From Phycisphaerae bacterium (GTDB lineage Bacteria; Planctomycetota; Phycisphaerae; Phycisphaerales; UBA1924), in contig BJHL01000003.1 in NCBI GenBank assembly GCA_014192545.1, forward strand, positions 372,001-436,000: DNA of 64,000 nt, given 5' to 3'. The notes beneath the pieces were generated by a model. The model searched no databases and had not been told where the DNA came from. It was given only the letters and a program-made list of their open reading frames with translations. Both the position numbers and the translations under genes were made by a program. Each line of letters begins with the position of its first letter. Position 1 is the stretch's first letter. Shown here in pieces: positions 6,306 to 32,917 of the stretch.

Positions 6306-7169
6306 TTACTTCGCGGGATATTCGTACACGCCGCGGCCGGTCTTGTCGCCTAGTCGGCCTGCGGTGACGAATTGTTTGAGCAGCGGGCAGGCGCGGTAGC
6401 GGTCGTTGTTGAGACCTTCGGCCAGGACGTTCATGATGTGGACGCAGGTGTCAAGGCCGATGAAGTCGGCGAGGCGCAGCGGGCCCATGGGGAAGTTGCA
6501 GCCCAGCTTCATGATGCCGTCGATGGCTTGCGGCTCGGCGACGCCTTCCATCCACGCGTAGAAGGCTTCGTTGATCATGGGCATGAGCACGCGATTGCTG
6601 ATGAAGCCCGCGCGATCGTTGGCAATGAGCGGCGTCTTGCCCATCTTGGTTGCAAGAGCAATGGTGCGCTCAGTGACGTCTTTGCTGGTTTGCACCGCGG
6701 GGATGACTTCAACCAATTGCATGAGCGGCACAGGGTTGAAGAAGTGCATGCCAACGACGCGATGTGCCGTGCTGCCCGCAGCGGTAGCGATGTCGGTGAT
6801 GCTGATGCTGCTGGTGTTGGTCGCGAGAACGACGTTGTCACTCGGGAAGATCGCGGCGAGTTTGGTGAAGAGGTCCTTCTTCACCTTCACATCTTCGACC
6901 ACGGCTTCAACGACCCAGTCGGCACCTGCGAGAGCTTCGAGCTTGTCGGTGAACTTGATGCGAGCCAGCGCGGCGTCGGCCTCCGCCTGTGTCATCTTGG
7001 CTTTCTCGACGAACTTGCTCAGGCTTTTCTTGTGCACGCCTTGGCACTTGGCAATCGCGCCAGGAAACGCGTCGAAGACAGTCACATTGATACCGCTGAC
7101 AGCGGCGATTTGTGCGATGCCGCCACCCATTTGGCCGGCGCCCAGAACTGCGAGTGAGGAAATGGTCAT
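6306..7169 (-). CDS. hbd: 3-hydroxybutyryl-CoA dehydrogenase
   Basis: A 287-residue cytoplasmic enzyme that interconverts 3-hydroxybutyryl-CoA and acetoacetyl-CoA with NAD(P), in fatty-acid, butyrate or polyhydroxybutyrate metabolism. The N-terminal NAD-binding loop is GAGQMGGGIAQ. The catalytic region contains TNTSSISITDIA and GMHFFNPVPLMQLVEVI (His-Glu pair), and the C-terminal domain begins at ANDRAGFISNRVLMPMINEA. The tail RLGDKTGRGVYEY is typical. The ATG at 7169 fits the family; the frame stays open further upstream but without similarity. It is divergent from the desaturase gene, which suggests a shared lipid-metabolism context. Confidence 0.95.
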   Translation of the reverse strand: MTISSLAVLGAGQMGGGIAQIAAVSGINVTVFDAFPGAIAKCQGVHKKSLSKFVEKAKMTQAEADAALARIKFTDKLEALAGADWVVEAVVEDVKVKKDLFTKLAAIFPSDNVVLATNTSSISITDIATAAGSTAHRVVGMHFFNPVPLMQLVEVIPAVQTSKDVTERTIALATKMGKTPLIANDRAGFISNRVLMPMINEAFYAWMEGVAEPQAIDGIMKLGCNFPMGPLRLADFIGLDTCVHIMNVLAEGLNNDRYRACPLLKQFVTAGRLGDKTGRGVYEYPAK

Positions 7170-7369
7170 GGCGGAGTGTAATCTGAACGCGGGCGGTTGG
7201 CAGATCGTGTGCAGCGAGATTGGGGCGTTGTTTGGCAATATGGCAAGAGCGGAAATTACTGGACAACGTCCGCGTTTCGCGAGCAGGATGCGATACGCTG
7301 AAGATCCGCGCTGCATGCCAGCGAGCTGGAGGTTCTGTGAGCATCTCATTGTGAACCTTGGAACAAAGG

Positions 7370-8374
7370 ATGGTCGCATTGAAACAAACAAGCACGCACA
7401 GCAGCAGCGAAATCGAACACAAGCCGACAGGCGAGACGAATGCGAGCAAGCCTGTAGCGGGTAGCGAGGGACTAGCGTTTCCAACGACAGTTGTCGCGCC
7501 GCCGCCCGCGAAGGACAAACTGAGAATCCGCTGGGCCTACACGCTAAGCATCGTGGTGATTCATTTGCTCGCGGTTGCGGCCGCGTTGCCTTGGTTTTTT
7601 TCGTGGACTGGCGTCATTGCGTGTTTCCTCGGGCTGTATGTATTTGGAACGCTTGGAATCAACGTCGGCTTTCATCGGCTGCTCACACACCGCGGATTTG
7701 CGTGCAGCAAGTTCGTTGAGCGCTCGCTCGCGCTGCTTGGCGTTTGCTGTCTGCAAGAGGGACCCGGGCGCTGGGTGGCAATTCATCGCCAGCATCATCA
7801 ACATTCCGACGAGCAACCCGATCCGCACTCGCCCCTTGTGGCATTTTTCTGGGGGCATGTCGGCTGGCTGCTCGTGAGCAACACGGCGACCGACTCGATG
7901 AGTCTGTACGAGCGATACGCACGCGATTTGATGAAGCAGCGCTTCTACATGCAGCTTGAGCGACAACTCAACTGGCTGTGGGTGTACGTCGCCCACGCGG
8001 CGATCATCGCGGCAGTCACGTTCGGCATCGGGTGGGCAATCACGCGTGATGTGAGCGCCGCGGCGAAGCTCACGGCAAGCATGATCGTCTGGGGCGTCCT
8101 GCTGCGAACGGTTTTGGTGTGGCACATTACGTGGAGCGTCAATTCGCTTTCGCATCTGTTTGGATATCAAAGCCATGACACCGGCGAAAATAGCCGTAAT
8201 AACTGGCTTGTTGCCCTCATTTCAAACGGCGAGGGATGGCACAACAACCATCACGCTGACCCGCGCTCAGCCGCTCATGGGCATAAGTGGTACGAGCTTG
8301 ATGTGTCGTATCTGTCGATTGTGGCGATGGAAAAGCTGGGCCTGGCGACCAAGGTGATGCGGCATGATCGGTGA
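7370..8374 (+). CDS. Fatty-acid desaturase, acyl-CoA/acyl-lipid delta-9 type
   Basis: 334 residues, a membrane di-iron desaturase. The three histidine boxes are clear: GFHRLLTHRGF (HxxxxH), HRQHHQHSDE (HxxHH) and GEGWHNNHHA (HxxHH), plus the extra NSLSHLFG His that ligates iron in stearoyl-CoA desaturases. Hydrophobic pairs flank the boxes, including LSIVVIHLLAVAAALPWFF. The first 45 residues are hydrophilic and variable. The start is uncertain: the ATG at 7370 is used here, with a TTG at 7358 also in frame. Its stop overlaps a GTG of the next frame (GTGA at 8371-8374). It probably introduces a double bond at C9 of membrane fatty acids. Confidence 0.93.
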   Translation: MVALKQTSTHSSSEIEHKPTGETNASKPVAGSEGLAFPTTVVAPPPAKDKLRIRWAYTLSIVVIHLLAVAAALPWFFSWTGVIACFLGLYVFGTLGINVGFHRLLTHRGFACSKFVERSLALLGVCCLQEGPGRWVAIHRQHHQHSDEQPDPHSPLVAFFWGHVGWLLVSNTATDSMSLYERYARDLMKQRFYMQLERQLNWLWVYVAHAAIIAAVTFGIGWAITRDVSAAAKLTASMIVWGVLLRTVLVWHITWSVNSLSHLFGYQSHDTGENSRNNWLVALISNGEGWHNNHHADPRSAAHGHKWYELDVSYLSIVAMEKLGLATKVMRHDR

Positions 8375-8439
8375 GGATCGCATGCGGTGCAAGTCGTTGC
8401 ATCACGACGCTCGGCGAGATGGTGACTAACCATTGCGGC

Positions 8440-8961
8440 ATGCAAGTTCGACCAATGAAGCGTGAAGAAGCGGCGATGTATGTTGCGTTACGGCGCGAGA
8501 TGCTGGATGACGCGCCGTGGGCATTTGGGGCAAGCCCCGAAGATGACACGCGGCTGGATGCTGCTCGAATTGCTCGCAACGTGAGTCATGGCGAGTCTGC
8601 GAACAACTACGCGCTGATCGGAGCGTTTGATGACATGCCCGCTGGCTTGCGACTGGTGGGCTGCGCGGAACTGATGCGAGACAGCACGATAAAGACCCGG
8701 CATCGCGCGGATATCTATAGCGTTTATGTGACGCCCACCCATCGCGGCAGAGGTGCCGGCTTGGCGATTATTGAGGAAGCCAAACGCATGGCACGGACAT
8801 GGCGCGGCGTAGACAGCTTGCGGCTGAGCGTGAGCGTGCGCAGCCCGGCCGCTCGCCGCGTCTATGAACGCGTTGGCTTCGTCGCGTGGGGCGTTGAGCC
8901 GGGGTGCCTGTGCGTCGAGGGCGAGTTCATCGACGAGGTTCACATGGTCTGCATGCTCTAA
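8440..8961 (+). CDS. GNAT-family N-acetyltransferase
   Basis: About 173 residues. The acetyl-CoA binding signature is seen as DIYSVYVTPTHRGRGAGLAI, with the R-x-x-G-x-G/A pyrophosphate loop, followed by the conserved C-terminal strand-helix (LRLSVSVRSPAARRVYERVG). The substrate cannot be told from sequence. The start at 8440 (MQVRPMKREEA) matches how such proteins usually begin. However, the frame is open from a GTG at 8371 that overlaps the desaturase stop, so the two genes may be translationally coupled through a longer N-terminus. It is probably co-transcribed with the desaturase. Confidence 0.88.
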   Translation: MQVRPMKREEAAMYVALRREMLDDAPWAFGASPEDDTRLDAARIARNVSHGESANNYALIGAFDDMPAGLRLVGCAELMRDSTIKTRHRADIYSVYVTPTHRGRGAGLAIIEEAKRMARTWRGVDSLRLSVSVRSPAARRVYERVGFVAWGVEPGCLCVEGEFIDEVHMVCML

Positions 8962-8969
8962 TCGTCCCA

Positions 8970-9869
8970 TCAGCGTCCGCTACTGCCAATATCTGGCGGA
9001 CGCGTGGACTCCAGCACGCGACGAAATACGTGTTCATGCACCAAGTGCAGTGCATCATGTCGCTGCTTCCCCCATGACCAAACAATCTCACCCGTGATAA
9101 CTCCAGGCGTGATCGATACATCCATCCGCGGAGGCAAACCGTTCATGCCCGAACCACGCGACAGATCGATTCGCAGTGGCCGAGACGTGCGGAACACCGA
9201 AAAGGCCAGTCGCGTCCCATTCTCATCTGCAGGCAACCTTCCTTCCCAAATCTGCCCCGACCATGCATCGCGCATCGTAAAAGTCCCATCCTTGCGCACG
9301 TCCATGCGAAACGTCGGCTGATCACGCCCCCCCACATGCAACCATGTTCCCGACAACTCCTCAAAACTTGGGGGTGCGGGATAGCTCTTGTTATGCACGA
9401 GCACACCTTCGACGAAGAAAGTCTCGCCGGGCTCCACGTTGAGATCAAAGACTTCTACCCCGCCGCTTTCGCGTCGCACTTCCTGCACGCGCGTCACGCC
9501 ATCGCGCGTCATCAGTCCGCGTTCCAAACCCAACTCGTCTGCGTGAACAAACTCTCCATTCTCCGTCGCCACCGGATGCTCCGCCGTCACGCGCAGCACA
9601 CGCCCATCGTCCATCACCAGCCGCAGATGCTCATGTACACGATGCGACGTCTTCGCCGTTACTCGCGCCGCTGAGATCGATCCATCCGGCATCCTCGCCA
9701 TCACCGCGTCGCCCACTTCAAGCGTCTCAATCGCACGCGGTCCGTCAGGTGTAGCCACTTGCGATCCTTCGGCGACGCAGGACGACCCGCGCTGACACGC
9801 CCCCATCACCGCGCCCAGCAGCAACATCAACACAACGCGTACAACCGCTCGCATGATCCACCTCCTCAT
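8970..9869 (-). CDS. Lipoprotein with embedded Hint (intein-like) self-processing domain
   Basis: 299 residues. A short signal peptide ends at a lipobox-like V-M-G-A-C (Cys25). Only five residues later, Cys31 begins a Hint domain. It carries the block A motif CVAEGSQVATPDGPRAIETL, the block B TAEHPV (His98), and the C-terminal block FFVEGVLVHN (His159-Asn160). The next residue is Lys161, not Cys, Ser or Thr, so normal protein splicing is unlikely, but N- or C-terminal cleavage remains possible. After the Hint domain come about 139 residues rich in beta strands (GTWLHVGGRDQPTFRMDV), of unknown function. If it is active, cleavage would free this C-terminal part from the lipid anchor. It converges with the acetyltransferase gene. 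Confidence 0.88.
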   Translation of the reverse strand: MRRWIMRAVVRVVLMLLLGAVMGACQRGSSCVAEGSQVATPDGPRAIETLEVGDAVMARMPDGSISAARVTAKTSHRVHEHLRLVMDDGRVLRVTAEHPVATENGEFVHADELGLERGLMTRDGVTRVQEVRRESGGVEVFDLNVEPGETFFVEGVLVHNKSYPAPPSFEELSGTWLHVGGRDQPTFRMDVRKDGTFTMRDAWSGQIWEGRLPADENGTRLAFSVFRTSRPLRIDLSRGSGMNGLPPRMDVSITPGVITGEIVWSWGKQRHDALHLVHEHVFRRVLESTRPPDIGSSGR

Positions 9870-9886
9870 CCTCCGGCCAGTCTAAC

Positions 9887-9917
9887 GAAAAAGCGGGGCC
9901 CTGACAAGGCCCCGCTT
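9887..9917 (-). terminator. Intrinsic terminator of the aconitase gene
   Basis: A hairpin with the 10-base arms AAGCGGGGCC and GGCCCCGCTT and a 7-base loop lies just after the aconitase stop. Read on the minus strand it is followed by a run of five T residues. It separates aconitase from the Hint lipoprotein gene. Confidence 0.85.
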
Positions 9918-9953
9918 CTGCTTTCTTCACTTGCTTTCAGACCGGAATGTGAC

Positions 9954-12900
9954 TTACACCCCCACCGCCACCTTCTTCTTGCTCTCATTCAGCAACCGCC
10001 GCAGCACCGTCTGCAGCACGCCGCCGTTGCGGTAGTACTCAGCCTCCACGGGCGTATCGATGCGGCACCTCGTCGTGAACTCGACTTTCTGGCCGCCGCG
10101 TTTGGTCGCAGTGACGCGAACGTGGCATCGCGGCTCGATCAAGCCATCAGCGCTGAAGTTCAGGTGAATATCAAACTTTTCATCACCAGTCAGCTTGAGG
10201 CTCTTGGCCGATTGCCCCTCTTCAAAGCACAGCGGCAACACACCCATGCCCACCAAGTTGCTGCGGTGAATGCGTTCAAAGCTTTCGCTGATCACAGCTC
10301 GGCAGCCCAGCAGCAGCGTGCCCTTTGCTGCCCAGTCGCGCGAGCTGCCCATGCCGTAGTCCTTGCCCGCCAGCACGATGAGAGGCGTGCCGTCGGACTT
10401 GTAGTTCATCGCGGCGTCGTAGAGATACACCGGAGACATCGCCAGTTTCTCGACGATGGCGTGAGCAAGGTCGTTGCTCTCAACAAACGTCTCGTGCCCT
10501 TCCCGGCCTGCGTTCTTCGCAAGATTGATAACGCGCACGACGTTGGCTTCATCGCCGATCAAGTCTTCCGCGATGCCCAAGCTCTTGATGCGTTGCAAAG
10601 CCTGCGCGGGAGTCATCGTCGCAAGGTCATGGAACTGATTGAATCCACGTTCGTGCGCGGCGGTCGACATGTCCTTGGTCCAGCCACCTTCCTTGACCTT
10701 GTTGGTCGTGGGATCAATCGCGAGATTGTTCTTGATGCGGGTGTTCGCGTACGTGCCGCGAGTCATCACGCGATCATTGCCACGCCGGCTGCCGTAGCTA
10801 TTGAAGTCAGCCTTGCGCACGCCGAGCGTCTTGAGGTACTGACCAGCGGGGCTGGCTTCAGCGATGTCGCCCGCGGGGCTGATGTGGTCAGTGGTCACGC
10901 TATCGCCCACGAACGCAAGCACGCGAGCACCTTGAATGGGACGCGGCGCACTGGGCTTCTCACCCATGCCTTCAAAATACGGCGGATTTTGGATGTACGT
11001 GCTCTTGTCATCCCACGCGTACAAGTCGCTCTTGCTGACAGGAACCTTGTTCCACGTTTCGTTTGCCGTGAAGACTTTCGCGTACTGCGTCTTGTATTGA
11101 TCGCTGCTGATGGCGAGTGCCTTGATGGCCTGCACCTCGGCATGCGTGGGCCAGATGTCCTTCAGGAAAACCGGCTTACCGTCCTTGCTTACGCCCAGTG
11201 GCTCGGTTGCAAGGTCAATCGCAACGCTGCCAGCAATCGCATACGCCACGCACAGCGGCGGGCTTGCGAGGTAGTTCGCCTTCACGCTTTGGTGGACGCG
11301 GCCTTCGAAGTTGCGATTGCCCGAGAGGACGCTCGCAACGCATAGGTCGCCTTCCTTGATGGCGGCTTCAACTTCATCAGGCAGCGGGCCGGAGTTGCCG
11401 ATGCACGTCGTGCAGCCATAACCCACCGTGTGGAAGCCCAAGGCTTCAAGGTCTTCGGTGAGGTTCGCCTTGTTGTAATAGTCGGTCACAACGCGAGAGC
11501 CAGGCGCGAGGCTGGTCTTGACCCACGGCTTGCGAGTCAAGCCCAACGCGCGAGCCTTGCGAGCCACCAAGCCAGCCGCGAGCATCACATCAGGATTGCT
11601 GGTGTTGGTGCAGCTTGTGATGGCTGCGATGACAACCGCGCCGTGCGTGATCTTGCTTTCGGAGGCACGCCCTTCCAGCGCGTGCGAACTACCCGCTGCG
11701 AACTTCACAGTGCCGGTTGCACCGAAAATCTTGTCGGCAGGCATCCCAAAGCTGGTGTTGCCCAGCGGAGCCGCCATGCTCTTGAAGAACTCAGCCTTGA
11801 CGTTCTTGAGTTCGACGCGATCTTGTGGGCGCTTGGGGCCAGCCAGGCTGGGCTGCACCGTGCTCATGTCCAGTTCGAGAATGTCCGTGAACTCAGGCTC
11901 GGGGCTTGCAGGCGTCCAGAAGAGGCCATTGGCTTTGCAATAGGCTTCCACAAGGGCGATTTGCTCTTCGGTGCGACCAGTCAAACGCATGTAATCAAGC
12001 GTTGCGGCATCGATCGGGAAGAATCCCATCGTCGCGCCGTATTCAGGAGCCATGTTGGCGATAGTCGCGCGATCCGGCACGCTCATGCTTGCAAGACCTT
12101 CGCCGAAGAACTCGACGAATTTGTCAACTACGCCCTTCTTGCGAAGCATCTGCGTCACCGTCAGCACAAGGTCCGTCGCCGTCGCACCTTCGGGCAGTTT
12201 GCCAGTCAGGCGGAATCCGATCACATCAGGCGTGAGCATGTAGATGGGTTGGCCCAGCATCACGGCTTCCGCTTCGATGCCGCCCACGCCCCAACCCACA
12301 ACGCCCAGGCCGTTGATCATGGTGGTGTGGCTGTCGGTGCCCACGCACGAGTCTGGGTACGCGACCGTCTCGCCGCCAACCTTCTTGGTCAGCACACCGC
12401 TCGCGAGATACTCGAGGTTGACTTGGTGCACAATGCCCGTCGCAGGCGGCACGCATGAAAAATTGTTCAGGCTCTGCTGACCCCATTTGAGGAACTTGTA
12501 TCGCTCGCCATTGCGCTCGAATTCTTTGTCGCCGTTGATGGTGAGAGCGTTCTTGCTCGCAAACGCGTCAACTTGCACGCTGTGGTCGATGACCAGGTCG
12601 CACTTGACGAGCGGATTGATGAGGTTGGGATCGCCGCCGAGTTTCTTCATCGCGTCTCGCATCGCCGCGAGGTCCACCACGCAGGGCACACCCGTAAAGT
12701 CCTGCAAAACCACCCGTCCTGGCATGAACGGCATCTCGACCTTGTTCGGCGCCTTGGCATTCCAGTTCGCAAGGCCCGCGACGTCGTCATCGGTGACGAT
12801 GAAACCATCAACGTTGCGAAGCATCGCCTCAAGCAAGACCTTGATGCTGTAAGGCAGCTTGGCGACGTGTCCGACTTTGTGGTCGATGAGCGTCTGCAGA

Positions 12901-22332: not shown

Positions 22333-23403
22333 TTACGCGATCAATTCGTGCATCTTTGACTTTGCGATCATTTCATCGATGATGGCCGGGAGGCTATGTC
22401 TCAGTTGCCACGTGGGATAGTGCGCATGGAACTTTGACATGTCGGTGTAGTAGCAGATGTGGTCGCCGATGCGGTTTGTCGGGTCGTATGACAGCGTGGG
22501 GCGATTGCCGGTCTGCCGGTGGATGTAATCGATGCACTCGATGACGCTTGCGGCGTTGTGTTTGCCGCCTCCCAGGTTGTAGACTTCGCCTGGACGGGGG
22601 TTTTGGGCGAAGTGCCAGAAGGCGTTGATGACATCGTGGCAGTGAATCTGGTCGCGGACTTGTTTGCCTTTGTAGCCGAAGATGGTGTACGGTTTTTCTT
22701 CGATTGCGCACTTGACGAGATAGTTGAGGAACCCGTGCAGTTCAACGCCTGCGTGCTGGGGGCCGGTCAGACAGCCGCCACGAAACACACCGGTTTTGAG
22801 GCCGAAATAGCGGCCGTATTCCTGCGCGAGCAGATCACCTGAGGCTTTGCTGACGCCGAAGAGCGAGTGGGTGTTCTGGTCGATCGTCAGGGATTCGTTG
22901 ATGCCTCGAACGAGTGAAGGGTGTGCGAAGTCATAACGCGTAGAGAACTCGGTGAGTGGCAAACGGTTGGGCGCGTCGCCGTAGACCTTGTTGGTTGAGA
23001 CGTGGATGAAGACTGCGTTGGGTCGCAGCGTGCGGCATGATTCAAGCAGGTTGAGCGTGCCCATGGCGTTGACTTCAAAGTCATCGAAGACGCGCTTGGC
23101 TGCGAGATCATGGCTCGGCTGCGCCGCAGCATGAATGATGATGTCGAACTTTGCGTCAGCGAAAAGACTGCGCACGCCGGCACGATCTCGGATGTCTAGC
23201 GTGACGTGCTCAAAGTTCGCGCATGATGCGAGCAGGCGGTGACGGTTTGAAGTTGTATCGCCTTTGGGCCCAAAGAAGTCGCCCCGCATGTTGTTGTCAA
23301 CACCCGTGACGCGAAAGCCCATGGCGTCAAAGAACGTGACAGCTTCTGAGCCTATGAGGCCTGAAGATCCGGTGACGAGGACGTATTTGGGTGCGGATTT
23401 CAT
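22333..23403 (-). CDS. NAD-dependent sugar-nucleotide epimerase (CDP-paratose 2-epimerase-like)
   Basis: 356 residues, an extended short-chain dehydrogenase acting on a nucleotide sugar. The NAD-binding motif is TGSSGLIGSEAV. Other blocks are DIIIHAAAQPSHDLA and STNKVYGDAPNR. The segment at the YxxxK position reads SLFGVSKASGDLLAQEYGRY, so Phe stands where the catalytic Tyr is expected. It continues GVFRGGCLTGPQHAG and GYKGKQVRDQIHCHDV, which is typical of the CDP-paratose/tyvelose epimerase-like group. The ATG at 23403 has GGAG eight bases upstream and begins three bases after the stop of the methyltransferase gene, so they form one operon. The likely role is supplying a sugar to the glycan cluster. 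Confidence 0.88.
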   Translation of the reverse strand: MKSAPKYVLVTGSSGLIGSEAVTFFDAMGFRVTGVDNNMRGDFFGPKGDTTSNRHRLLASCANFEHVTLDIRDRAGVRSLFADAKFDIIIHAAAQPSHDLAAKRVFDDFEVNAMGTLNLLESCRTLRPNAVFIHVSTNKVYGDAPNRLPLTEFSTRYDFAHPSLVRGINESLTIDQNTHSLFGVSKASGDLLAQEYGRYFGLKTGVFRGGCLTGPQHAGVELHGFLNYLVKCAIEEKPYTIFGYKGKQVRDQIHCHDVINAFWHFAQNPRPGEVYNLGGGKHNAASVIECIDYIHRQTGNRPTLSYDPTNRIGDHICYYTDMSKFHAHYPTWQLRHSLPAIIDEMIAKSKMHELIA

Positions 23404-23406
23404 CAC

Positions 23407-24132
23407 TCAGTCTCCGGGTTTCCAATTTTGAGGCCATGGAAAGGCGTCGCCACGTGCTGCGATGCTGTCGATGAGGCGACGATGGACGAAGAATGCGTCG
23501 ACGACGAAAAGTTCCTGGTCAGGCTTACGCCAGTACTCACCCAGTTGGACAAGCACGTGGCCCAGCGGCCGAAGGAAGTCCATGACTTCCGGCAGCAGCG
23601 GAGTTTGGCTGCCGTAGCCGCGGCCGAGCCATGTTTCAATGTGCATCGCGTCTGCCGCTTCAACGGTTGCGCGACCACCATCAAGGACGAGCAGTTCGCC
23701 CCCTTGTACATCAATCTTGATGAGTTGAGGCTGTGGGATTGCATGACGCTTGCGAAACTCGTCAAGCGTTGCAACTGGAACGCGCACAACTTCGGAAGCT
23801 GGCGCATTGCGAGCGAGGAGCGAACTGCCGACTATCCAGGGCTGCTTCCAAAAGTCTTGCTCGCCGGATTGCGCGCCGAGGGCTACTTCGTGGATGTGAA
23901 AGCTGCGGTGCGTTTGCTTCGCCCAGTCCAGCACCCGTGCGTACTCAGCTTCGCGACGAGCGAGGGGCTCAAAGATATCGAAGCGTGCATCGGGCAGAAT
24001 ATCAGCCATCGCGCTAGACCACGCGGCGTTGGAGCCACCGACGTCGACGACGGAATCGATCTGCCAGCCTGACTGCAGCAGGCTTGCGAAGAAGCGTCGT
24101 TCACAATCTGCAAATGGAATGGTGGTTTTCAT
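23407..24132 (-). CDS. FkbM-family methyltransferase
   Basis: 241 residues, an S-adenosylmethionine-dependent methyltransferase. Motif I is VVDVGGSNAAWS. Later blocks are DARFDIFEPL, GSSLLARN, VPVATLDEFRKRH and the FkbM signature LIKIDVQGGELLVLDGG. Such enzymes usually O-methylate sugars or glycan-linked hydroxyls. The gene sits nine bases downstream of a second FkbM gene and directly upstream of the epimerase gene, so all three are probably one transcript. Confidence 0.9.
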   Translation of the reverse strand: MKTTIPFADCERRFFASLLQSGWQIDSVVDVGGSNAAWSSAMADILPDARFDIFEPLARREAEYARVLDWAKQTHRSFHIHEVALGAQSGEQDFWKQPWIVGSSLLARNAPASEVVRVPVATLDEFRKRHAIPQPQLIKIDVQGGELLVLDGGRATVEAADAMHIETWLGRGYGSQTPLLPEVMDFLRPLGHVLVQLGEYWRKPDQELFVVDAFFVHRRLIDSIAARGDAFPWPQNWKPGD

Positions 24133-24141
24133 GGACGTTTC

Positions 24142-25215
24142 TCATGCCGACAGCGTCGGTTGAATCGATTGCTGAATGAGGTGGGGTGTATAGAGCGCGA
24201 TGACGTGCATTCCTTGCATGCGCAACGCTTCGCTCTTGTGCCAAAGCGAAACTTCGTGGGCGTCACTTGAAAGCACGACGACATCAATACCGCGAGATTG
24301 AGCAGTTTGTGGCAAGATGATTTCGCGGCCGGCGATTCGTTCGCCTCGCAGTTGGAGGTTGTCATCCAGAATCGCGACGATGGGCAGCGGCATCTCGTCG
24401 AAGAACTGGGCGAGAGCCTGCGTGTGCTTGCCCGATCCGTACAGCGCGGCAGCGGTACAGCCGCGTGCAGCCGCTCGCTGGAGTGCGCGGCGAAGACGCC
24501 CTTTGGGAGAGAGATCCGGGAGGTTTTTGCGTGTGCGCAGTTGGGCGAGCACATCATTTCGCAGCCAGAGGCCATCGCCGTACGTAGTTTGCTCTTCGTC
24601 GCCTCGGTCGTTGACTTCATGCAACTGGTGAAGGGAGAAGTTGTTCTCGGCAAGGAATCGATCGATCTGCGAGAAGGACGCACAACCTTCGTACTCTGGC
24701 GCGAACTGACACTCACAGTTGATTGCCCGGACATTGCCAAGCAAACCAGTTGCACCTTTCAGCACTTCGAGATCGAAGCCCTGCACGTCGACTTTCACTA
24801 GGTCAACGCGATTGATGCCTTGCTGATTCGCCCAGTTGTCGAGCGTAACAACCGGCACCTTGACAACCTGACGAGTGGCGTACCAGTCGCCGTAGTAGCG
24901 ACGGCCAAGTTCGCTTGGAGCCAGCAGCGAAGAGCACCAGTGATTGCCAGTGATGTGAAAGTCCGCCGAACCAGCCTTTGAACCACACGCAAACGGATAG
25001 ATTGAAACGCGCGAGTCGTTCGCAACCGACGCCGCGAGTCGCTCGTGCGTTTCTGGAGCGGGTTCAAAGGCATGAACGTGCGACTGAGGAAACTCCTTGA
25101 GAACGCGGGCGATGGTTTGGCCTTCATTTGCCCCAACATCGACCACGGTCAGGCGTTCCTCAATGTCAAAAACGCGTGTGAGCGAGGTGTATGCGTCGTA
25201 TGGAAAGAGCTTCAT
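24142..25215 (-). CDS. FkbM methyltransferase fused to a C-terminal Rossmann-like domain
   Basis: About 357 residues from the ATG at 25215; ATGs at 25272 and 25341 are also in frame. The N-terminal 210 residues are an FkbM methyltransferase: TVVDVGANEGQTIARVLKEF, HAFEPAPETHERL and LVKVDVQGFDLEVLKGATG. After a linker comes a separate domain (about residues 255-340) starting AALYGSGKHTQALAQFF, with IVAILDDNLQLRGERIAGRE and DVVVLSSDAHEVSLW. That domain recurs at the C-termini of the two divergent neighbours at 25416 and 26540. It looks like a nucleotide-binding fold (Gly-rich loop after a strand, acidic pair after the second strand), function unknown. Confidence 0.85.
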   Translation of the reverse strand: MKLFPYDAYTSLTRVFDIEERLTVVDVGANEGQTIARVLKEFPQSHVHAFEPAPETHERLAASVANDSRVSIYPFACGSKAGSADFHITGNHWCSSLLAPSELGRRYYGDWYATRQVVKVPVVTLDNWANQQGINRVDLVKVDVQGFDLEVLKGATGLLGNVRAINCECQFAPEYEGCASFSQIDRFLAENNFSLHQLHEVNDRGDEEQTTYGDGLWLRNDVLAQLRTRKNLPDLSPKGRLRRALQRAAARGCTAAALYGSGKHTQALAQFFDEMPLPIVAILDDNLQLRGERIAGREIILPQTAQSRGIDVVVLSSDAHEVSLWHKSEALRMQGMHVIALYTPHLIQQSIQPTLSA

Positions 25216-25415
25216 GGGGATGGCATCTCCGCACCGACTCCCGTCGGGACTTGATTCGTTATCGGTTGCCATTTGGCGGGTGCGTGAGCGTTGGTCGGTA
25301 TGTTGGGGCAAGATTTTCGATTTCTCGCTAACTTGCGGCAATTTCGCTCAAGTCATCACCTTGTGTTCAAGAGGTCCGGCCTTCTGCGACGATGCTGCAA
25401 TTGCAGGAGGTTTTC

Positions 25416-26543
25416 ATGTCCAGCAACGATGTGTGGTTCGTCATTCCCAGCGCGAGCCCTGAAAAGTGCCGTAAGACACTGCCCTTGTGGCGTGAACGTG
25501 GCTATCGCATCGCCGTTCTCCAGAACTTTGAGAAGGGTGAGATTCCTGCTGATATCGTGGACTGGTTTGACTACTACCCCGGCTGGCCCGAAAGCGTCAA
25601 CATTCTGTGCCGACAGGTCATTCCGCAAAGTTGCCAACTGATCGTGAGTGGCGGTGATGACATGCTGCCTGACCCAAACCACACCGCCCAAGAACTTGCA
25701 GCACAATTCTTCGATCGTTTCCCGGATGGGTTTGGTGTCATGCAGCCGCATGGCGATGAGTTCATGTGTGCGAAGCGATACTGCGGCTCGCCGTTCATCG
25801 GTCGCGCGTGGTTTGAGAACATGTACGGCGGGCGCGGTCCGATGTACGGGGGATATCACCACAATTACGCAGACAATGAGCTGTACTGGGTCGCAAAGGG
25901 ATTGAACGCGCTGTGGGAGCGAACTGATCTTTCCCACTTCCACGATCACTTCACGCGAACCGGCGAATCGCAGCCAGACTACTGGAACAGTGTGAAGCAG
26001 CGTGATCTGCAGGACTGTCTGCTGTACTACGCGCGCGTTCATGAGACATTTCCGGGTCATGCTCCCACTCAAGCAGCGTTGTGTCGTCCGTTCGACGAAT
26101 CGCTTCCGCGTGCCGAGATGCTGCTGCTCGCCGAGCACCGGCTCTTCCGCGTGGCGATTGACAACCCGTACAGCAACGCGATTGCGAAGGCACTCACGCA
26201 GTGCGCCGACGAAGGAGAACACACTGTCGGGCTCTATGGATTTGGTCTGCACACGCAGGTCGCTGGCAGCGCGTTGCGTGAGCCGCCGGTCAAGATCGCG
26301 TGCATCATCGACGACAATGAATCTAATCATGGCCGGGTCGCGTGGGGAATTCCCGTGGTTTCGCGTCACACCGCGCTGGCAATGGGGTTGCAGGCGGTCG
26401 TGCTATCAGGCAACTCGGTGGAAGACCGACTGTGGAGCAATGCAACGCCATTTCGTGAGCGCGGCATCACTGTGAGGCGTCTGTATGCGAACACGCCCGC
26501 CAACGACGCTGATCTTGCTCGGACTCGTCTCATTACGCTGTGA
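25416..26543 (+). CDS. Glycosyltransferase-like protein with the shared C-terminal Rossmann-like domain
   Basis: 375 residues. The start is secure: AGGAGG lies just before the ATG at 25416. The N-terminal half resembles a GT-A fold: VWFVIPSASPEKCRKTLPLW, then CQLIVSGGDDMLPDP with an acidic GDD that may bind metal-sugar nucleotide, and a Tyr/Gly-rich segment FENMYGGRGPMYGGYHHNY. The C-terminal domain (about 271-357) begins VGLYGFGLHTQVAGSAL and continues ACIIDDNESNHGRVAWGIPV and AVVLSGNSVEDRLW, matching the tails of the two adjacent proteins. The sugar substrate is unknown. It is divergent from the FkbM operon and overlaps the next gene by GTGA. Confidence 0.75.
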   Translation: MSSNDVWFVIPSASPEKCRKTLPLWRERGYRIAVLQNFEKGEIPADIVDWFDYYPGWPESVNILCRQVIPQSCQLIVSGGDDMLPDPNHTAQELAAQFFDRFPDGFGVMQPHGDEFMCAKRYCGSPFIGRAWFENMYGGRGPMYGGYHHNYADNELYWVAKGLNALWERTDLSHFHDHFTRTGESQPDYWNSVKQRDLQDCLLYYARVHETFPGHAPTQAALCRPFDESLPRAEMLLLAEHRLFRVAIDNPYSNAIAKALTQCADEGEHTVGLYGFGLHTQVAGSALREPPVKIACIIDDNESNHGRVAWGIPVVSRHTALAMGLQAVVLSGNSVEDRLWSNATPFRERGITVRRLYANTPANDADLARTRLITL

Positions 26544-27619
26544 GCGTCATTATGATTCATGTGATAGGCGACAGCCACGTGTCGATATTCACGGGCTTAC
26601 ATGGCGTGTGCCCGGCGTTCCCTGACTCGACGCCGCATGCGCTAGACTCGTTTCGCGTGTGGCATCTCGGCCCGTTCTTGGCGTATTCGGTAGACAAACC
26701 CACTCACAGGGTGTGCAGGCTCGCGCTGCAATGCTTGAAACATGTTCCGATGAAGTCGCAGATCGCGTTCTTCATGGGTGAGATTGACTGCAGAAATCAC
26801 ATTCTCAAGCACGGCTCATCGCGTCGGACCATCGTCCAGAACGCCAAAAAGGTTGCTACTCGATACGTGCGTGCGGTTGACGAACTTTCCCGGCCGCGAA
26901 AGCCAGTCAAACTCGCCGTCGTCGCGCTTCCACCCGCAACTGAAGCGCAGCACGGCAACGAGCATCAGCCAAGTGTCGGCACGCACGCGCAGCGGACTGT
27001 CGCGGTCGCGGCATTTAACGCGGGGCTTCGCGCCGCTGCGAAGTCGTGCGGTATGCAAGTCTTTGAGGCGATCGCGAGCCTGGGCGATGAACAGGGGCGC
27101 CCGCTCGGTGCGTACTTCGCCGACGGCGTGCATGCTGATCCGCGATGTTTGCCTGTGGTTGTGCAGGAGCTGCGACAGAAGGGCTGGCTTGATATGCACG
27201 GTCATGACCTTGCGGTGGCGCAAGCACTCGCATGTATCGCCCCGCCGACGCGGCACAGCCTGCCTTGCGGACTTGGTGACCTGCGAACCGCCAGGCTTGT
27301 GCTCGCGGAACGTGCTGCACTTCGGTGCCGCGCTGCAGGCGCGAAGACGGCGGCGGTGTATGGCGCGGGCCGACACACGCACGATCTGGGTCTGGCGTGC
27401 TTCACGCGCGCAGGGTTGCGCGTGGTGGCTTTGCTAGATGACAGCCCTGCTGTTGACACACTTCACGGTGTGCGGGTGATGCGGCCCGACGCGGTTCGTA
27501 CGCGGTTTGATGCTGTCATCATTTCCTCTGACGGTCACGAGAGCACGCTGCTGCAATCGGCGAAGCGGCGGTTCGGCTCATCGAAGCTGATCATGCCGAT
27601 CTACACGCAGCCTGAGTGA
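26540..27619 (+). CDS. SGNH-hydrolase-like protein with the shared C-terminal Rossmann-like domain
   Basis: 359 residues from a GTG at 26540 that overlaps the preceding stop; an ATG at 26552 (MIHVIGDSH) is an alternative. The N-terminal part shows SGNH-like blocks: IGDSHVSIFTGLHG with the nucleophile Ser in GDSH, FFMGEIDCRNHIL in the place of the usual GxND, and FADGVHADP giving the Asp-His pair. Such proteins are often glycan O-acetyl esterases or transferases. The C-terminal domain (about 271-355) starts AAVYGAGRHTHDLG and contains VVALLDDSPAVDTLHGVRV and DAVIISSDGHESTL, the same as in the two neighbours. The end overlaps the convergent glycosyltransferase gene by 29 bases. Confidence 0.75.
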   Translation: MSVIMIHVIGDSHVSIFTGLHGVCPAFPDSTPHALDSFRVWHLGPFLAYSVDKPTHRVCRLALQCLKHVPMKSQIAFFMGEIDCRNHILKHGSSRRTIVQNAKKVATRYVRAVDELSRPRKPVKLAVVALPPATEAQHGNEHQPSVGTHAQRTVAVAAFNAGLRAAAKSCGMQVFEAIASLGDEQGRPLGAYFADGVHADPRCLPVVVQELRQKGWLDMHGHDLAVAQALACIAPPTRHSLPCGLGDLRTARLVLAERAALRCRAAGAKTAAVYGAGRHTHDLGLACFTRAGLRVVALLDDSPAVDTLHGVRVMRPDAVRTRFDAVIISSDGHESTLLQSAKRRFGSSKLIMPIYTQPE

Positions 27620-30020
27620 CATCTGCATGTTCGTCGATCATTTCGAACATGCGACCCAACTGCGAACGCAGGCTGTAATGACGAAGCGCCGCCGATTGCT
27701 GCCACGATGCCAGAGAGTCGCGTCGCACGCGACGAGTCACGGCAGCCGTAGCCGATGCGATAAATGACTCTCGCGACCAGAAGCAGCTGGACGCGATGTC
27801 TCCGGTCAGCCATGCTGCCTCGACAGGTAAAGCGTGCGAGCCCGGCTTGATCTGCGACACATCCATCACCTGCTTGCCGTCTAACGGATGCTGCGGGTGC
27901 ATGCCCAGGTCGCCATACAACGAATAGACGAGCATGGATTCCCAATGCCCAGCGATCTGCGTCGCGAGATACTGCTTTCCATCGATGATGACTCGCTCAC
28001 ACTCCGCCGCATCGACGCGCGTCCCGATCGAGTTCTGAGCCCAGAATTCCAGCAGTCGCACATCATCCGCCTTTACACGCACAAGCGTGCAGCCGCCGGA
28101 TAGGGCGCACTCCAGCACACGTTGGTGATACATGCCGCCCAGCCCGGCGTGCAGGTGCACTCGCGCACACTGATACGCCGCGCGAAGTGATTCATCATGT
28201 GACAGCTCGCCCTTGGCATACTTTGCAAATCGCTCGTGGCGTTCCCATCCGCGACCGTACAAGTGCAGTCGCCAGCCGCGCGAGTCGCAGAGATCAGCAG
28301 CCCAGCCGATCATCTGTTGCCGTAATGCACGTTCAGCGATCGGGTGGACGACTTGATGTAGCACATCTGCGCCTATGCGCTCAACGCTAGCTTGTCCGCC
28401 GATTTTTCGTAGCTTTTGTTCCACAAGCTGGCGGAGTGCAGGCAGCAACTGCTCGCCATGAACATCAGCGGCACAGGCCATATCGGTGACAATCGGTGTC
28501 AACTCGCTGATAAGATGCCGCGCAGTTCCATCACCCGCAGACGCGACGGCTCTCGCGGCGAAAGCTTGCGGCGTCTCGCTTTGGTGCGACACGTAAGCAA
28601 CTTCACACGCGAACTTGCGCCGCAAATCTTCTTCCACGGGCTTTTCATGAAACTTGATCTGGCTTGCCAGTACCGGTGTTTCAAGTGTGCGATTGGTGGC
28701 GATTGCCAACGTCTGAATCATCTCAGGATGCAAGTGTCCCATGATGAAATCTCGCTCGGTGACTTTGCTTGCTGAGCCGGATTGAAACAGATGCCGCATC
28801 GCATCTTGAACCCACGTGACAACAGTTGTCATGGGCGGTGCAACGTCGGGTAACTGGGACCGCAGCGTGTTGATGAAAAGCACGATATCCGGCTGAAATC
28901 GTTCGAATGCCTGAAGCAACGCGAGTGGCGTGAGAAGCGAGTGCTCGTCAGGCTCAACCAGTACGCTCGCCTCGCACCCCAGCGTGCGCAGCGTTGCAGC
29001 AATGTCCGATGCGGCATGCTGCACGTATGTCGAGTATCGCGTCGTTGGTAGCAGCACCCGCACGCCTTGTCCGGCGGACAGCCGGTTGTCGCGTTGCGAT
29101 GCGGTCTGGATGTCCCACGCCAACACACGTGCGCGCGTTGCGGTCGTTTCTTGCGATTGCAACTCGCCCACCTCGGCAAGCAATCGGCCAGGCTCCCCTC
29201 GCGGCCAGCGTGCCGATTCAAATGGTGGCATGGGCAAAGACACCACCCATCCCAGCGTGCACCCGATGCGAGCACGGGCCTCATCGCTCACGCGCTGAGG
29301 GCAGTCGGCACCGATCCACACTTGCACGCGTAGTGCAGCAAGAACATCCGGCATGGCTCGCAAGCACAATGCGCACAATGCTTCGGCGGGGCTTGCTGCG
29401 AGAAGCACAACGCGAGCTTGCAATTCTCCACGGGATTTTGCTGTTTGTGCGAAGAGTGTCGTAATCACTTCCGGCGCGTGCATGCCATCGAGATAGAACG
29501 GTCCATCACGCACGTTGCTTTGGGCAAGAAGCTCACCGGCACCGAGTGTGTTGGAAAACAACACCCACGATTGATCCGGCGCTCGCAACGTGACCACGCC
29601 GGTCGTGGTGCGGAAAGCGCGATGTTGACGCAGTGCAGTCGTCCACGATTCGACATGGGGTGCGAGTATGTCGCGCGTTGTAACTGGCAACGCGTGCAAG
29701 TTCGCTTCTAAATTCTTCAACATTTCAGCGTGCGACACAGCATCATCTGGCAAACTCGCGAGCAGCTTCGCCAGCCCCGCCTTGGCAGGATGCTCCGTCT
29801 CTCTCAATGCCTCGCTGGCCAGCGTTCGCAATCCCATCCGCGCATATGCAACCGCTTGCGCGACACGCAGCTCATTGCGGATTTGATCCGGCAACTGCTC
29901 TCGCAGTTTGGCTGCAATCGCCGGCACGACCGCCCACGCATCTGCAGTCAGTGCTTGCTTGCCCACGCCAGATCGGCAGATATCCGCCTCGATTGGGGTG
30001 AACTGCGGGTCGATGGGCAT
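27591..30020 (-). CDS. Large glycosyltransferase with C-terminal GT1/CgeB-like domain
   Basis: 809 residues. The first 130 residues are helical and resemble TPR-type repeats (NELRVAQAVAYARMGLRTLA). A middle region (about 150-310) has no recognised motif. From about 318 there is a two-lobed glycosyltransferase: GVRVLLPTTRYSTYVQHAAS, DIVLFINTLRS, VVTWVQDAMRHLFQ and finally LHLYGRGWERH with ARVHLHAGLGGMYHQRVLEC. That last segment is the nucleotide-sugar binding part of GT1-like and spore-protein (CgeB, DUF3880-like) glycosyltransferases. The substrate is unknown. The gene converges on the SGNH-like gene and overlaps its end. Confidence 0.78.
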   Translation of the reverse strand: MPIDPQFTPIEADICRSGVGKQALTADAWAVVPAIAAKLREQLPDQIRNELRVAQAVAYARMGLRTLASEALRETEHPAKAGLAKLLASLPDDAVSHAEMLKNLEANLHALPVTTRDILAPHVESWTTALRQHRAFRTTTGVVTLRAPDQSWVLFSNTLGAGELLAQSNVRDGPFYLDGMHAPEVITTLFAQTAKSRGELQARVVLLAASPAEALCALCLRAMPDVLAALRVQVWIGADCPQRVSDEARARIGCTLGWVVSLPMPPFESARWPRGEPGRLLAEVGELQSQETTATRARVLAWDIQTASQRDNRLSAGQGVRVLLPTTRYSTYVQHAASDIAATLRTLGCEASVLVEPDEHSLLTPLALLQAFERFQPDIVLFINTLRSQLPDVAPPMTTVVTWVQDAMRHLFQSGSASKVTERDFIMGHLHPEMIQTLAIATNRTLETPVLASQIKFHEKPVEEDLRRKFACEVAYVSHQSETPQAFAARAVASAGDGTARHLISELTPIVTDMACAADVHGEQLLPALRQLVEQKLRKIGGQASVERIGADVLHQVVHPIAERALRQQMIGWAADLCDSRGWRLHLYGRGWERHERFAKYAKGELSHDESLRAAYQCARVHLHAGLGGMYHQRVLECALSGGCTLVRVKADDVRLLEFWAQNSIGTRVDAAECERVIIDGKQYLATQIAGHWESMLVYSLYGDLGMHPQHPLDGKQVMDVSQIKPGSHALPVEAAWLTGDIASSCFWSRESFIASATAAVTRRVRRDSLASWQQSAALRHYSLRSQLGRMFEMIDEHADVTQAACRSA

Positions 30021-30140: not shown

Positions 30141-31802
30141 ATGGCGATCTCCTCGGACCTCACGCATCACGTCGATAGTCGCGAGATCCCAGGTGCTCGT
30201 GCGAAGGTTCTCACGCAGTCGCGGTTGCTTGAGCTGCGCGAACAAGCACGCATCGCCGGCAAAGTGGTCGTGCAGTGCCACGGGTGCTTCGACATCGTCC
30301 ATCCCGGTCACATTCGTCACCTGCGGCAAGCTCGCTCGCACGGGGACATTCTGCTCGTGACAATTACGGGCGATGTTGCGTGGACCAAGCGTGATGGCGC
30401 GCCGCTGATTCCGCAGGAGCTTCGTGCTGAAAATCTCGCCGAACTCGACTGCGTGGACTGGGTCGCAATTGAACCAAGACCGACCGCTGCGGAATTGCTC
30501 GCGGAAGTCAAGCCCGATGTTTACGTCAAGGGCAAGGAGTACGAACGCAGCGATGATCCGCGTTTTCTCGAAGAGCGCCGAGTCGTCGAATCACACGGCG
30601 GACGCGTCGTTTTCTCAAGCGGCGACATCGTTTTTTCATCAACGGCACTTATTCGCTCGCTTGAGTCAATGGCCGATCCGTATCACGCAAAACTCACGAG
30701 CTTGCTCGCGCGACCCGAACTCAGCGCGCCGGCACTGCATCAGCGTTTGTCAGCGTGTGCCGGTAAGCGCGTGCTCGTTGTCGGCGAGACAATTCTCGAC
30801 ACGTACTGGCTCTGCGACCAACCAGAAATCGCAAGTGAATCGCCCGTCATGACGTTGCGGCCGATTGAAAAACGCCAGTACGATGGTGGCGCAGCAGTCA
30901 TCGCGCGACATCTCGCAGCAATGGGTGCGAGACCGACCCTGCTCACGTGCCTTTCGCCTCGCCCCGAATCCGCGTTGCTTCGCCGCCGGCTTGAAGCCGA
31001 AGGGATTCAAATCGAGGCGATAGCGAGTGATGAACCGCAGCCAGAAAAGCAGCGATTTTTGGTGGGGTCGCAGAAAATCATGAAGGTAAACAACTTTCAT
31101 CCACTCTCGCTTGATGCAGAGCGTCGTGATCGGATGGTTGACATCGCAGCAAGCACCGCGAGAGGGTTTGATGCCGCAATCGTCGTTGACTTTGGCAATG
31201 GCATGTTGTCTCCCGTGACGATCGAACGACTCGGAGCCGCGCTCAGATCGCGCGTGGGTGTGCTTGCGGGCGATGTGTCAGGGCGCCGGGCTGCATTGCG
31301 GCACTTTCTCAACTTTGATTTGCTGGCACCGTCCGAAGCCGAAGCTCGTGCTGCAATGCAATGCTTTGATGAGAGCCTGCCCGTTGTCGCGTGGCGCCTG
31401 TTTCAGCAGACAGGTGCACGCAACGCGTTTATCACGCTGGGCGCCGAAGGTCTTATTGCGTGCTCTCGCAAGCCCGGCGCTGAGCTTGCTCAGGAACGCG
31501 AGAATCTCTCTCGCGTGACGAGCGAGTATGTTCCGTCGCTCATTGCACACGCGCTTGATCCGCTAGGCTGCGGCGATGCCCTCCTCGCCGCCGCAACACT
31601 CAGTCTCACCACAGGCGCATCGCCACTCGCTGGTGCCTTCTTGGGCAGCATCGCGGCTGCCGCACAGGCGCAGCGAATGGGAAACGTGGCAATTTCTGCA
31701 GCAGATATGCGACAAGGCATTGCTCGCGCACACGCCGCCAAACTCGTGTTCGCCCCGGCGGATTCCGATACGCTCGCTTCAACTGGGTCGGCATCGCCGT
31801 GA
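30141..31802 (+). CDS. HldE-like bifunctional sugar nucleotidyltransferase and PfkB-family kinase, domains in reverse order
   Basis: 553 residues. The N-terminal domain (about 40-175) is a cytidylyl/adenylyltransferase with CHGCFDIVHPGHIRHLRQAR (HxGH motif), DVYVKGKEYERSDDP and VFSSTALI. The C-terminal domain (about 208-530) is a PfkB carbohydrate kinase with VVGETILDTYWLCDQPEIA, YDGGAAVIARHLAAMGA and the anion-hole motif DPLGCGDALLAAATLS. In E. coli HldE the kinase comes first, so here the order is swapped. The likely job is phosphorylating and nucleotidylating a heptose or similar sugar for the glycan cluster. The exact sugar cannot be told. The next gene starts within its stop (GTGA). Confidence 0.88.
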   Translation: MAISSDLTHHVDSREIPGARAKVLTQSRLLELREQARIAGKVVVQCHGCFDIVHPGHIRHLRQARSHGDILLVTITGDVAWTKRDGAPLIPQELRAENLAELDCVDWVAIEPRPTAAELLAEVKPDVYVKGKEYERSDDPRFLEERRVVESHGGRVVFSSGDIVFSSTALIRSLESMADPYHAKLTSLLARPELSAPALHQRLSACAGKRVLVVGETILDTYWLCDQPEIASESPVMTLRPIEKRQYDGGAAVIARHLAAMGARPTLLTCLSPRPESALLRRRLEAEGIQIEAIASDEPQPEKQRFLVGSQKIMKVNNFHPLSLDAERRDRMVDIAASTARGFDAAIVVDFGNGMLSPVTIERLGAALRSRVGVLAGDVSGRRAALRHFLNFDLLAPSEAEARAAMQCFDESLPVVAWRLFQQTGARNAFITLGAEGLIACSRKPGAELAQERENLSRVTSEYVPSLIAHALDPLGCGDALLAAATLSLTTGASPLAGAFLGSIAAAAQAQRMGNVAISAADMRQGIARAHAAKLVFAPADSDTLASTGSASP

Positions 31803-32917
31803 TCTCGTACGTCTTGCCAACACGAGATCGCACAGCCACGCTCAATGCAACATTGCGAGATCTCGCGTCGCTCCCAGCACACGATGCTCAACTCGTTATC
31901 GTTGACAACGCATCAACGCAGCCTTGCGTCGCACCACGCTCGCTTTCAAACGGCGTTCAGGTTCACATCGAGCGACTGCGCGAGAACCAAGGTACAGGCG
32001 GTCGCAACGCCGGCGTCGTTCGTGCCCTTGCATCATGCGGTTCAGCATCGCTCGGTTCAGCAGCAAGCAATCACTGGATCATCATGCTCGATGATGACAG
32101 CGCTCCCCTCTCGCTCGACTTCTTACCACTGCTTGCTTCAGCACAACCAGACGAAGCTGTCATCGCCGCCGAAGTTCTGCTCGAGGACAGCCCCGACGGA
32201 ACCCAGCGGCACGAATCTGGCGGCTTGCCCGAAGTTCCCATCGGCTGCGGTGCAGCAATTCGCGCGGACGTCTGGACCGAGATTGGCGGCTACGACCCAA
32301 CCTTCGACTACTACGCCGAGGAATATGACTTTGCCGCTCGCATGCTGCTCGCTGGCATGCGCGTTCGCTACGACCGGCGGTTCCAGGTGCGTCATCGAAA
32401 AGTGAGCCAGGGTCGCGACATGAACCGCATTCTCTGCAATCTTGTGCGAAACAATGCATGGGTCATGGCTCGCTACGCACCAGACGATCAGCGCGGCGCG
32501 CTGATTCAACATCAGATTGATCGTTACGCGATCATCGCTGACAAAGAAAAAGCGACGGCTGGATACCAACGTGGCCTCGCCCAACTGCAAGCTACGCTTT
32601 CGCACCAGCCACGCCGACCGCTCAATACAGACAAATGGCAACGATTCACCGGCTACGCCGCCGTCGCCGCGACACTCCGACGCGCCGCGGCTTCATGCGG
32701 CATCCTCGCAATCGTCAATCATGGCAAGAACGTGGAAGTAATCGAACAAGCCGCTCGCGATGTTGGCATGACCATCACGCCGGAAATCGCAAACGCCGAC
32801 ACGCTGCTGATCGGATCGCTTTCGCCAGGCCCAATGCTCGACGCAACCGCGATGCAACTGGCCGCACACCCATCGATGTGCGTACTCCCTCCTTGGACAC
32901 TTGCCGGCGCAAGCTGA
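31799..32917 (+). CDS. Glycosyltransferase family 2 with an extra C-terminal domain
   Basis: 372 residues from a GTG overlapping the HldE-like stop. The GT-A domain has ISYVLPTRDRTATLNATL, LVIVDNAST, the metal-binding DDDSAP after WIIML, and the acceptor-side block GGYDPTFDYYAEEYDFAARM. Residues from about 285 form a second small domain (AASCGILAIVNHGKNVEVIE, ADTLLIGSLSPGPM) that resembles a Rossmann half but is not clearly the same as the domain shared by the three genes at 24142-27619. It probably uses the sugar activated by the upstream enzyme. Confidence 0.88.
   Translation: MISYVLPTRDRTATLNATLRDLASLPAHDAQLVIVDNASTQPCVAPRSLSNGVQVHIERLRENQGTGGRNAGVVRALASCGSASLGSAASNHWIIMLDDDSAPLSLDFLPLLASAQPDEAVIAAEVLLEDSPDGTQRHESGGLPEVPIGCGAAIRADVWTEIGGYDPTFDYYAEEYDFAARMLLAGMRVRYDRRFQVRHRKVSQGRDMNRILCNLVRNNAWVMARYAPDDQRGALIQHQIDRYAIIADKEKATAGYQRGLAQLQATLSHQPRRPLNTDKWQRFTGYAAVAATLRRAAASCGILAIVNHGKNVEVIEQAARDVGMTITPEIANADTLLIGSLSPGPMLDATAMQLAAHPSMCVLPPWTLAGAS

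Follow-up and report, generated by a model that had tools for sequence, protein, structure and literature searches.

Rossmann-like accessory domains of glycan enzymes have been known from one enzyme type at a time, namely PglD, the sugar C-methyltransferases and WbaP. In sugar C-methyltransferases, such a domain helps to hold the nucleotide-sugar during its modification by the partner domain. In PglD, a Rossmann-like domain contributes to binding the nucleotide-sugar, the sugar of which is modified by the partner domain (PMC8040287), and the domain of WbaP is stabilised by uridine monophosphate, diphosphate and triphosphate (UMP, UDP, UTP) and supplies a dimer interface, UMP inhibiting with an apparent half-maximal inhibitory concentration of 4.1 uM (PMC10942596). 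Here we analysed a window of 64,000 nucleotides from a Phycisphaerae bacterium (GenBank assembly GCA_014192545.1, contig BJHL01000003.1, positions 372,001 to 436,000 of the forward strand), in which three adjacent genes of a glycan locus, called A, B and C, encode proteins ending in one common Rossmann-like domain, the tail, behind three heads that are unrelated to one another. The superfamily of this domain is already known; its occurrence throughout one family as a tail common to the enzymes of a glycan locus is new, and no description of such lineage-wide use of a tail on a glycan gene set was found.

Gene A (24142-25215, minus strand) consists of an FkbM head and a C-terminal tail at 24178..24495 (LRRALQ...LYTPHL, with YGSGKHT, DD and LSSDAHE), gene B (25416-26543, plus strand) of a GT-A head and a tail at 26178..26498 (YGFGLHT, DD, LSGNSVE), and gene C (26540-27619, plus strand) of an SGNH-like head and a tail at 27302..27616 (YGAGRHT, DD, ISSDGHE). 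The three proteins share a homologous end of approximately 105 residues, with BLASTP identities of 34% for A-B (8e-18), 32% for A-C (4e-15) and 27% for B-C (5e-7) and Smith-Waterman Z values, from 500 shuffles per tail pair, of 28, 23 and 10, respectively; no shuffle reached the observed score. Iterative profile searches starting from each of the three tails gathered one same family, and the tail profile found three copies in the 3.66-Mb assembly, all of them in genes A, B and C. A sequence-only reading of the window had proposed a common C-terminal domain for the proteins at 24142, 25416 and 26540, with the motifs YGxGxHT, DD and LSS or LSG plus an acidic residue, attached to three different heads encoded on both strands. 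All of this held, the last motif reading LSS, LSG or ISS and the acidic residue turning out to be an invariant Glu in the three window tails. Models built from tail A (with tails B and C in the alignment) and from full-length B showed the same fold, so that neither outcome named there as refuting, different folds or family membership of a single tail, was obtained. The arrangement on two strands can be described more precisely: A and B/C are divergent neighbours, an order kept in other genomes, and the end of B and the start of C overlap by 4 bp. The approximately 200 bp between A and B (window 25216-25415) are likely a shared promoter region.

A count of heads in other planctomycetes revealed the tail on GT4, GT2, FkbM, GT-A and SGNH heads and on other methyltransferases within one Phycisphaerales family. 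In the first survey (41 sequences with 74 tails), it was carried by 25 GT4, 11 B-type GT-A, 11 GT2, 5 FkbM and 4 SGNH proteins, the remaining tails belonging to several class I methyltransferases and other proteins; a larger set comprised 116 tails in 112 open frames. The tail is not always C-terminal, as it stands before the catalytic domain in some class I methyltransferases. Two tails per open frame were observed in L039:10646-12625, L105:4837-9615 and L065:6180-10634, which suggests that the tail also duplicates within proteins.

The tail was modelled as a five-stranded beta-alpha Rossmann-like domain with a predicted local distance difference test score (pLDDT) of 96.9. Structural comparison by VIA led to Z 10.4 for the C-terminal domain of KijD1 (residues 306-414; 103 of 106 residues, root-mean-square deviation 3.1), about 10 for the C-terminal domains of TcaB9 and MtmC, 10.5 for the N-domain of 3nkl (Foldseek 1.6e-5), deposited as UDP-D-quinovosamine 4-dehydrogenase, and 8.8 for the perosamine N-acetyltransferase (PerB). 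The same two proteins were found with the family profile in the PDB (3nkl, 6e-8; PerB, 2e-4), and in the PerB alignment the His of the tail falls on the His of GGGGHA and its DD on DADP. When 74 tails were searched against profile libraries at E<=0.01, TIGR03570 (NeuD/PglB/VioB) was matched by 38 tails (best 1.5e-7), PglD_N by 17 and Methyltransf_14 by 9 (best 1e-4), and two full-length homologues (L036, 26.7 bits; L065, 30.1 bits) exceeded the PglD_N cut-off of 23.4 bits. The superfamily of the tail also includes the N-terminal domain of the sugar acyltransferases NeuD and PglD, the one at the C-terminus of the C-methyltransferases, and the 3nkl-type domain of UDP-sugar dehydrogenases or dehydratases. 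With the N-terminal domain of PglD, NeuD, VioB and PerB (PF17836, TIGR03570) it shares the size of approximately 90-105 residues, the GxGxH after strand 1, the acidic pair or residue after strand 2 and the use in a sugar-nucleotide pathway; there, however, the domain is followed by a left-handed beta-helix acyltransferase, whereas the tail itself follows glycosyltransferase, methyltransferase and SGNH heads. With the C-terminal domain of KijD1, TcaB9 and MtmC (PF08484, Methyltransf_14) it shares the fold over the whole domain, the C-terminal position and the occurrence on a methyltransferase, but its heads are FkbM, GT-A, SGNH, GT4 and GT2, and the sequence match is weak. Zinc-binding and C-methyltransferase domains of the KijD1 type were found in none of A, B and C by Pfam or NCBIfam, A matching FkbM only. 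The FkbM enzyme of PDB entry 2py6 also contains a related domain (chain residues 42-107; 1e-5 with the A-type profile), which is N-terminal there and C-terminal in gene A.

The strongest positions of the tail, among them G20, G22, H24, T25, D44, D45, S76 and E81, lie on or just after the loops following predicted strands 1 (GxGxHT), 2 (DD) and 4 (SSDxHE), on the edge where a sheet of this type binds its ligand. Conservation reaches 99% for G22, 88% for H24, 97% for D44 and 96% for D45, and the cleft motifs carry a mean information of 3.0 bits per position compared to 1.7 elsewhere, a contrast matched in 7 of 20,000 trials in which equal blocks were placed at random. The His and the DD are retained on GT4, GT2, GT-A, FkbM and SGNH heads. 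In Pcryo_0637/PglD, the UDP-sugar is held by Ser and Cys/His of the first loop and by two consecutive Asp (PMC8040287), and G22, H24, D44 and D45 of the tail, of which the His and the first Asp align with PerB, would be the exact equivalents of these UDP contacts. The fold, the profile matches and the conserved cleft residues of the PglD kind lead us to infer a sugar nucleotide as the ligand of the tail. The sequence-only reading had suggested a common nucleotide-sugar or glycan as ligand; the first part is backed by the fold, the NeuD/PglD_N and C-methyltransferase profiles and the conservation at the ligand edge, and the glycan part found no support.

We consider it somewhat probable that the tail is a sugar-nucleotide-binding accessory domain. 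In this Phycisphaerales family it has been attached, mostly C-terminally, to many of the enzymes encoded in a single locus for glycan assembly, and the cleft formed by GxGxHT, DD and SSDxHE at the C-terminal sheet edge would hold a nucleoside-diphosphate sugar or a nucleotide. On methyltransferase and SGNH heads, the tail would most likely hold the sugar nucleotide under modification, as in PglD and KijD1, and on glycosyltransferase heads it would more likely hold or sense the same sugar nucleotide or the released nucleotide, with the result that all enzymes of the locus may draw on one pool. We favour the holding of a substrate somewhat over pure sensing, docking alone has the least support, and both the identity of the ligand and a role in supply as opposed to regulation are speculative. 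Several points weigh against this assignment: the window's own tails stay under every Pfam cut-off, Rex-family repressors fit the tail model equally well by fold (Z up to 10.6), the ligand is deduced from fold, profiles and cleft, and GT4, GT2 and GT-A heads should bind a sugar nucleotide themselves, so that a second site needs another reason. Still more tentative is an extension in which the tail is a pathway-wide module, so that the entire glycan pathway would be supplied or controlled by one sugar nucleotide or by its nucleotide product.

This problem of a second site would be solved if the tail were a nucleotide-sensing regulatory and dimerisation domain, as has been proposed for PF13727 of WbaP, with free UMP or UDP, or an equivalent product, tuning the heads and no substrate site being present, as a common regulator explains the same site on chemically unrelated heads and also on glycosyltransferases with their own donor site. 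The WbaP domain, with its sensing of UMP and UDP and its dimerisation (PMC10942596), is the nearest precedent for the glycosyltransferase heads; as is presumed for the tail, it is a nucleotide-binding accessory domain on a glycan enzyme, PF13727 being present in PglF-type dehydratases too, 3nkl is the closest match of the tail in the PDB by sequence and by Foldseek, and the WbaP structure 8t53 fits the tail with Z 8.8 over 87 residues. Nevertheless, we regard this explanation as rather unlikely: at E<=0.01 not one of the 74 tails matched PF13727, the predicted elements of the tail do not include the additional C-terminal beta-hairpin seen in WbaP, and the nearest match over the whole domain is the C-terminal domain of the C-methyltransferases rather than WbaP. 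The WbaP domain also differs in position, as it precedes the catalytic domain and adjoins membrane helices.

The tail profile matched 36 of 61 genomes, the present one included. Within the Phycisphaerales family of the present genome, 37 genomes were searched and 30 had the tail. At least two copies were found in 25 of these 30 genomes, and in 18 of the 25 two tails lie no more than 10 kb apart, compared to 1.8% expected for three random positions; in 22 of the 30, a tail lies no more than 12 kb from a homologue of the 809-residue glycosyltransferase encoded next to gene C. These counts are lower bounds because some of the assemblies are fragmented. A contig scan with a narrow alignment gave 10 loci, nearly all in metagenome-assembled genomes of Phycisphaerales or Phycisphaerae, in agreement with the planctomycete origin assumed in the sequence-only reading, and no tail copies were found in the viral contigs searched. 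In a phylum-wide sample, strong matches were restricted to the same family and matches elsewhere were weak and often partial; as at most 16 candidates per genome were scored, the absence outside the family is not firm. The recurrent clustering, and the position of all tails of the present genome on three genes of one locus, would also be expected of a docking module, likewise proposed in the sequence-only reading, that joins the heads to each other or to a scaffold such as the adjacent 809-residue glycosyltransferase, the nucleotide cleft being vestigial. In 41 genomes, moreover, all 13 B-type and all 4 C-type heads are directly followed by a tail. Docking is nevertheless improbable as an explanation of the tail: conservation sits on the cleft motifs, a mild argument against a role in docking alone, 5 of the 30 genomes have a single tail gene and hence no partner tail, and tails of different heads show a mean identity of 37% within a locus and 35% between loci, i.e. 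no co-variation by genome. An NAD(P)-binding Rossmann domain with Rex-like redox sensing, for which the fit of the Rex repressors and a weak Rex profile match of tail A (0.002) may be quoted, is very improbable, given that the third glycine of GxGxxG is T in 86% (GxGxHT), that NeuD is matched by 38 of 74 tails and Rex by one, and that the tail genes sit among glycan enzymes.

The set of A, B and C in like order and orientation is also present in G002 and G020, and all three head types occur in L095 and L099. Tails on the same head type of A-B-C loci show identities of 39-77% between genomes, compared to 20-33% among the three window tails, and the tail tree largely follows the head type, with some mixed groups. 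As same-head tails of different genomes are more alike than the paralogues of the window and the tree mainly follows the heads, the three fusions predate these genera, with occasional later exchange. A recent tandem duplication in this genome was ruled out by the same identities and the head-wise tree. In L103 (G321; 6599-11334), four adjoining tail genes with FkbM, FkbM, GT-A and GT-A heads were observed, one FkbM tail being 62% identical to one GT-A tail, likely by a more recent exchange.

The head of gene A (24496..25215, minus strand) is well above both FkbM cut-offs, with 87.9 compared to 22.7 bits for PF05050 (1e-24) and 107.4 compared to 37.7 bits for TIGR01444 (8e-31). Its start is most likely at 25215 (MKLF...) and not at the TTG at 25341, because the homologues start there. 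For the head of gene B (25416..26177, plus strand; VWFVIPSA..., GGDDMLPDP, YADNELYW), no Pfam match above cut-off, including the Pfam GT2 profile, and no NCBIfam match was obtained. The gene B model (pLDDT 86.7), however, has a GT-A fold, with VIA Z of 13-15 over about 210 residues to many GT-A enzymes, the best matches being GalNAc-T2 (Z 15.0) and the archaeal mannosyltransferase PcManGT (Z 14.8), and a Foldseek match to SunS (2e-6). In its DXD-like acidic motif GGDD, G87 and D89 are invariant and G88 and D90 nearly invariant. By its predicted structure, this head is a GT-A glycosyltransferase overlooked by Pfam. The head of gene C (26540..27301, plus strand; IGDSH, GEIDCR, DGVHAD) was aligned with 6 homologues, in which GDSH (SGNH block I) and DGVH (block V, DxxH) are invariant, and GEID replaces the GxND of block III without its Asn. 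It remains under the Pfam cut-off, the best homologue reaching 4e-4 for PF13472 (21.3 compared to 32.9 bits), and is a probable SGNH enzyme. A PDB sequence search with the heads of B and C alone gave no match.

Next to gene A on the same strand, the locus contains an NAD-dependent epimerase/dehydratase (22333..23406, minus strand; PF01370, 2e-39), which has no tail and is kept in the locus by synteny, and a second FkbM methyltransferase without a tail (23407..24132, minus strand; PF05050, 6e-13). The latter adjoins gene A and is a natural control for the contribution of the tail. Next to gene C follows the glycosyltransferase-like protein of 809 residues (27591..30020, minus strand), with a short Glyco_trans_1_2 match and the greater part of its length unassigned; 35 of the 37 genomes of the family have a homologue, mostly close to tail genes. 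An HldE-like kinase/nucleotidyltransferase was assigned by library profiles at 30141..31802 (plus strand). Its nucleotidyltransferase domain comes first and the kinase second, whereas HldE usually has the opposite order, and its sugar may be other than heptose, as every HldE score is under the equivalog cut-off. At 31799..32917 (plus strand), a GT2 glycosyltransferase is encoded (PF00535, 1e-6), the last approximately 80 residues of which look, on visual inspection, like a Rossmann-like tail that has degenerated; a sensitive profile scan gave no match, and a fourth tail was therefore rejected. FlhF and FlhG at 14.5-17 kb of the window suggested a possible role of the locus in flagellin glycosylation. 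The flagellins of this genome lie on other contigs, all 36 relatives have flagellins, which leaves no contrast, and the genes flanking the tail locus differ among the relatives listed.

The products of genes B and C, which had no class in the annotation libraries used, are now given likely classes. For the family, a single version of the domain occurs on enzymes of several types within one locus and has been maintained across many genera. As the same tail occurs on different heads, the function of the accessory domain becomes open to testable comparison.

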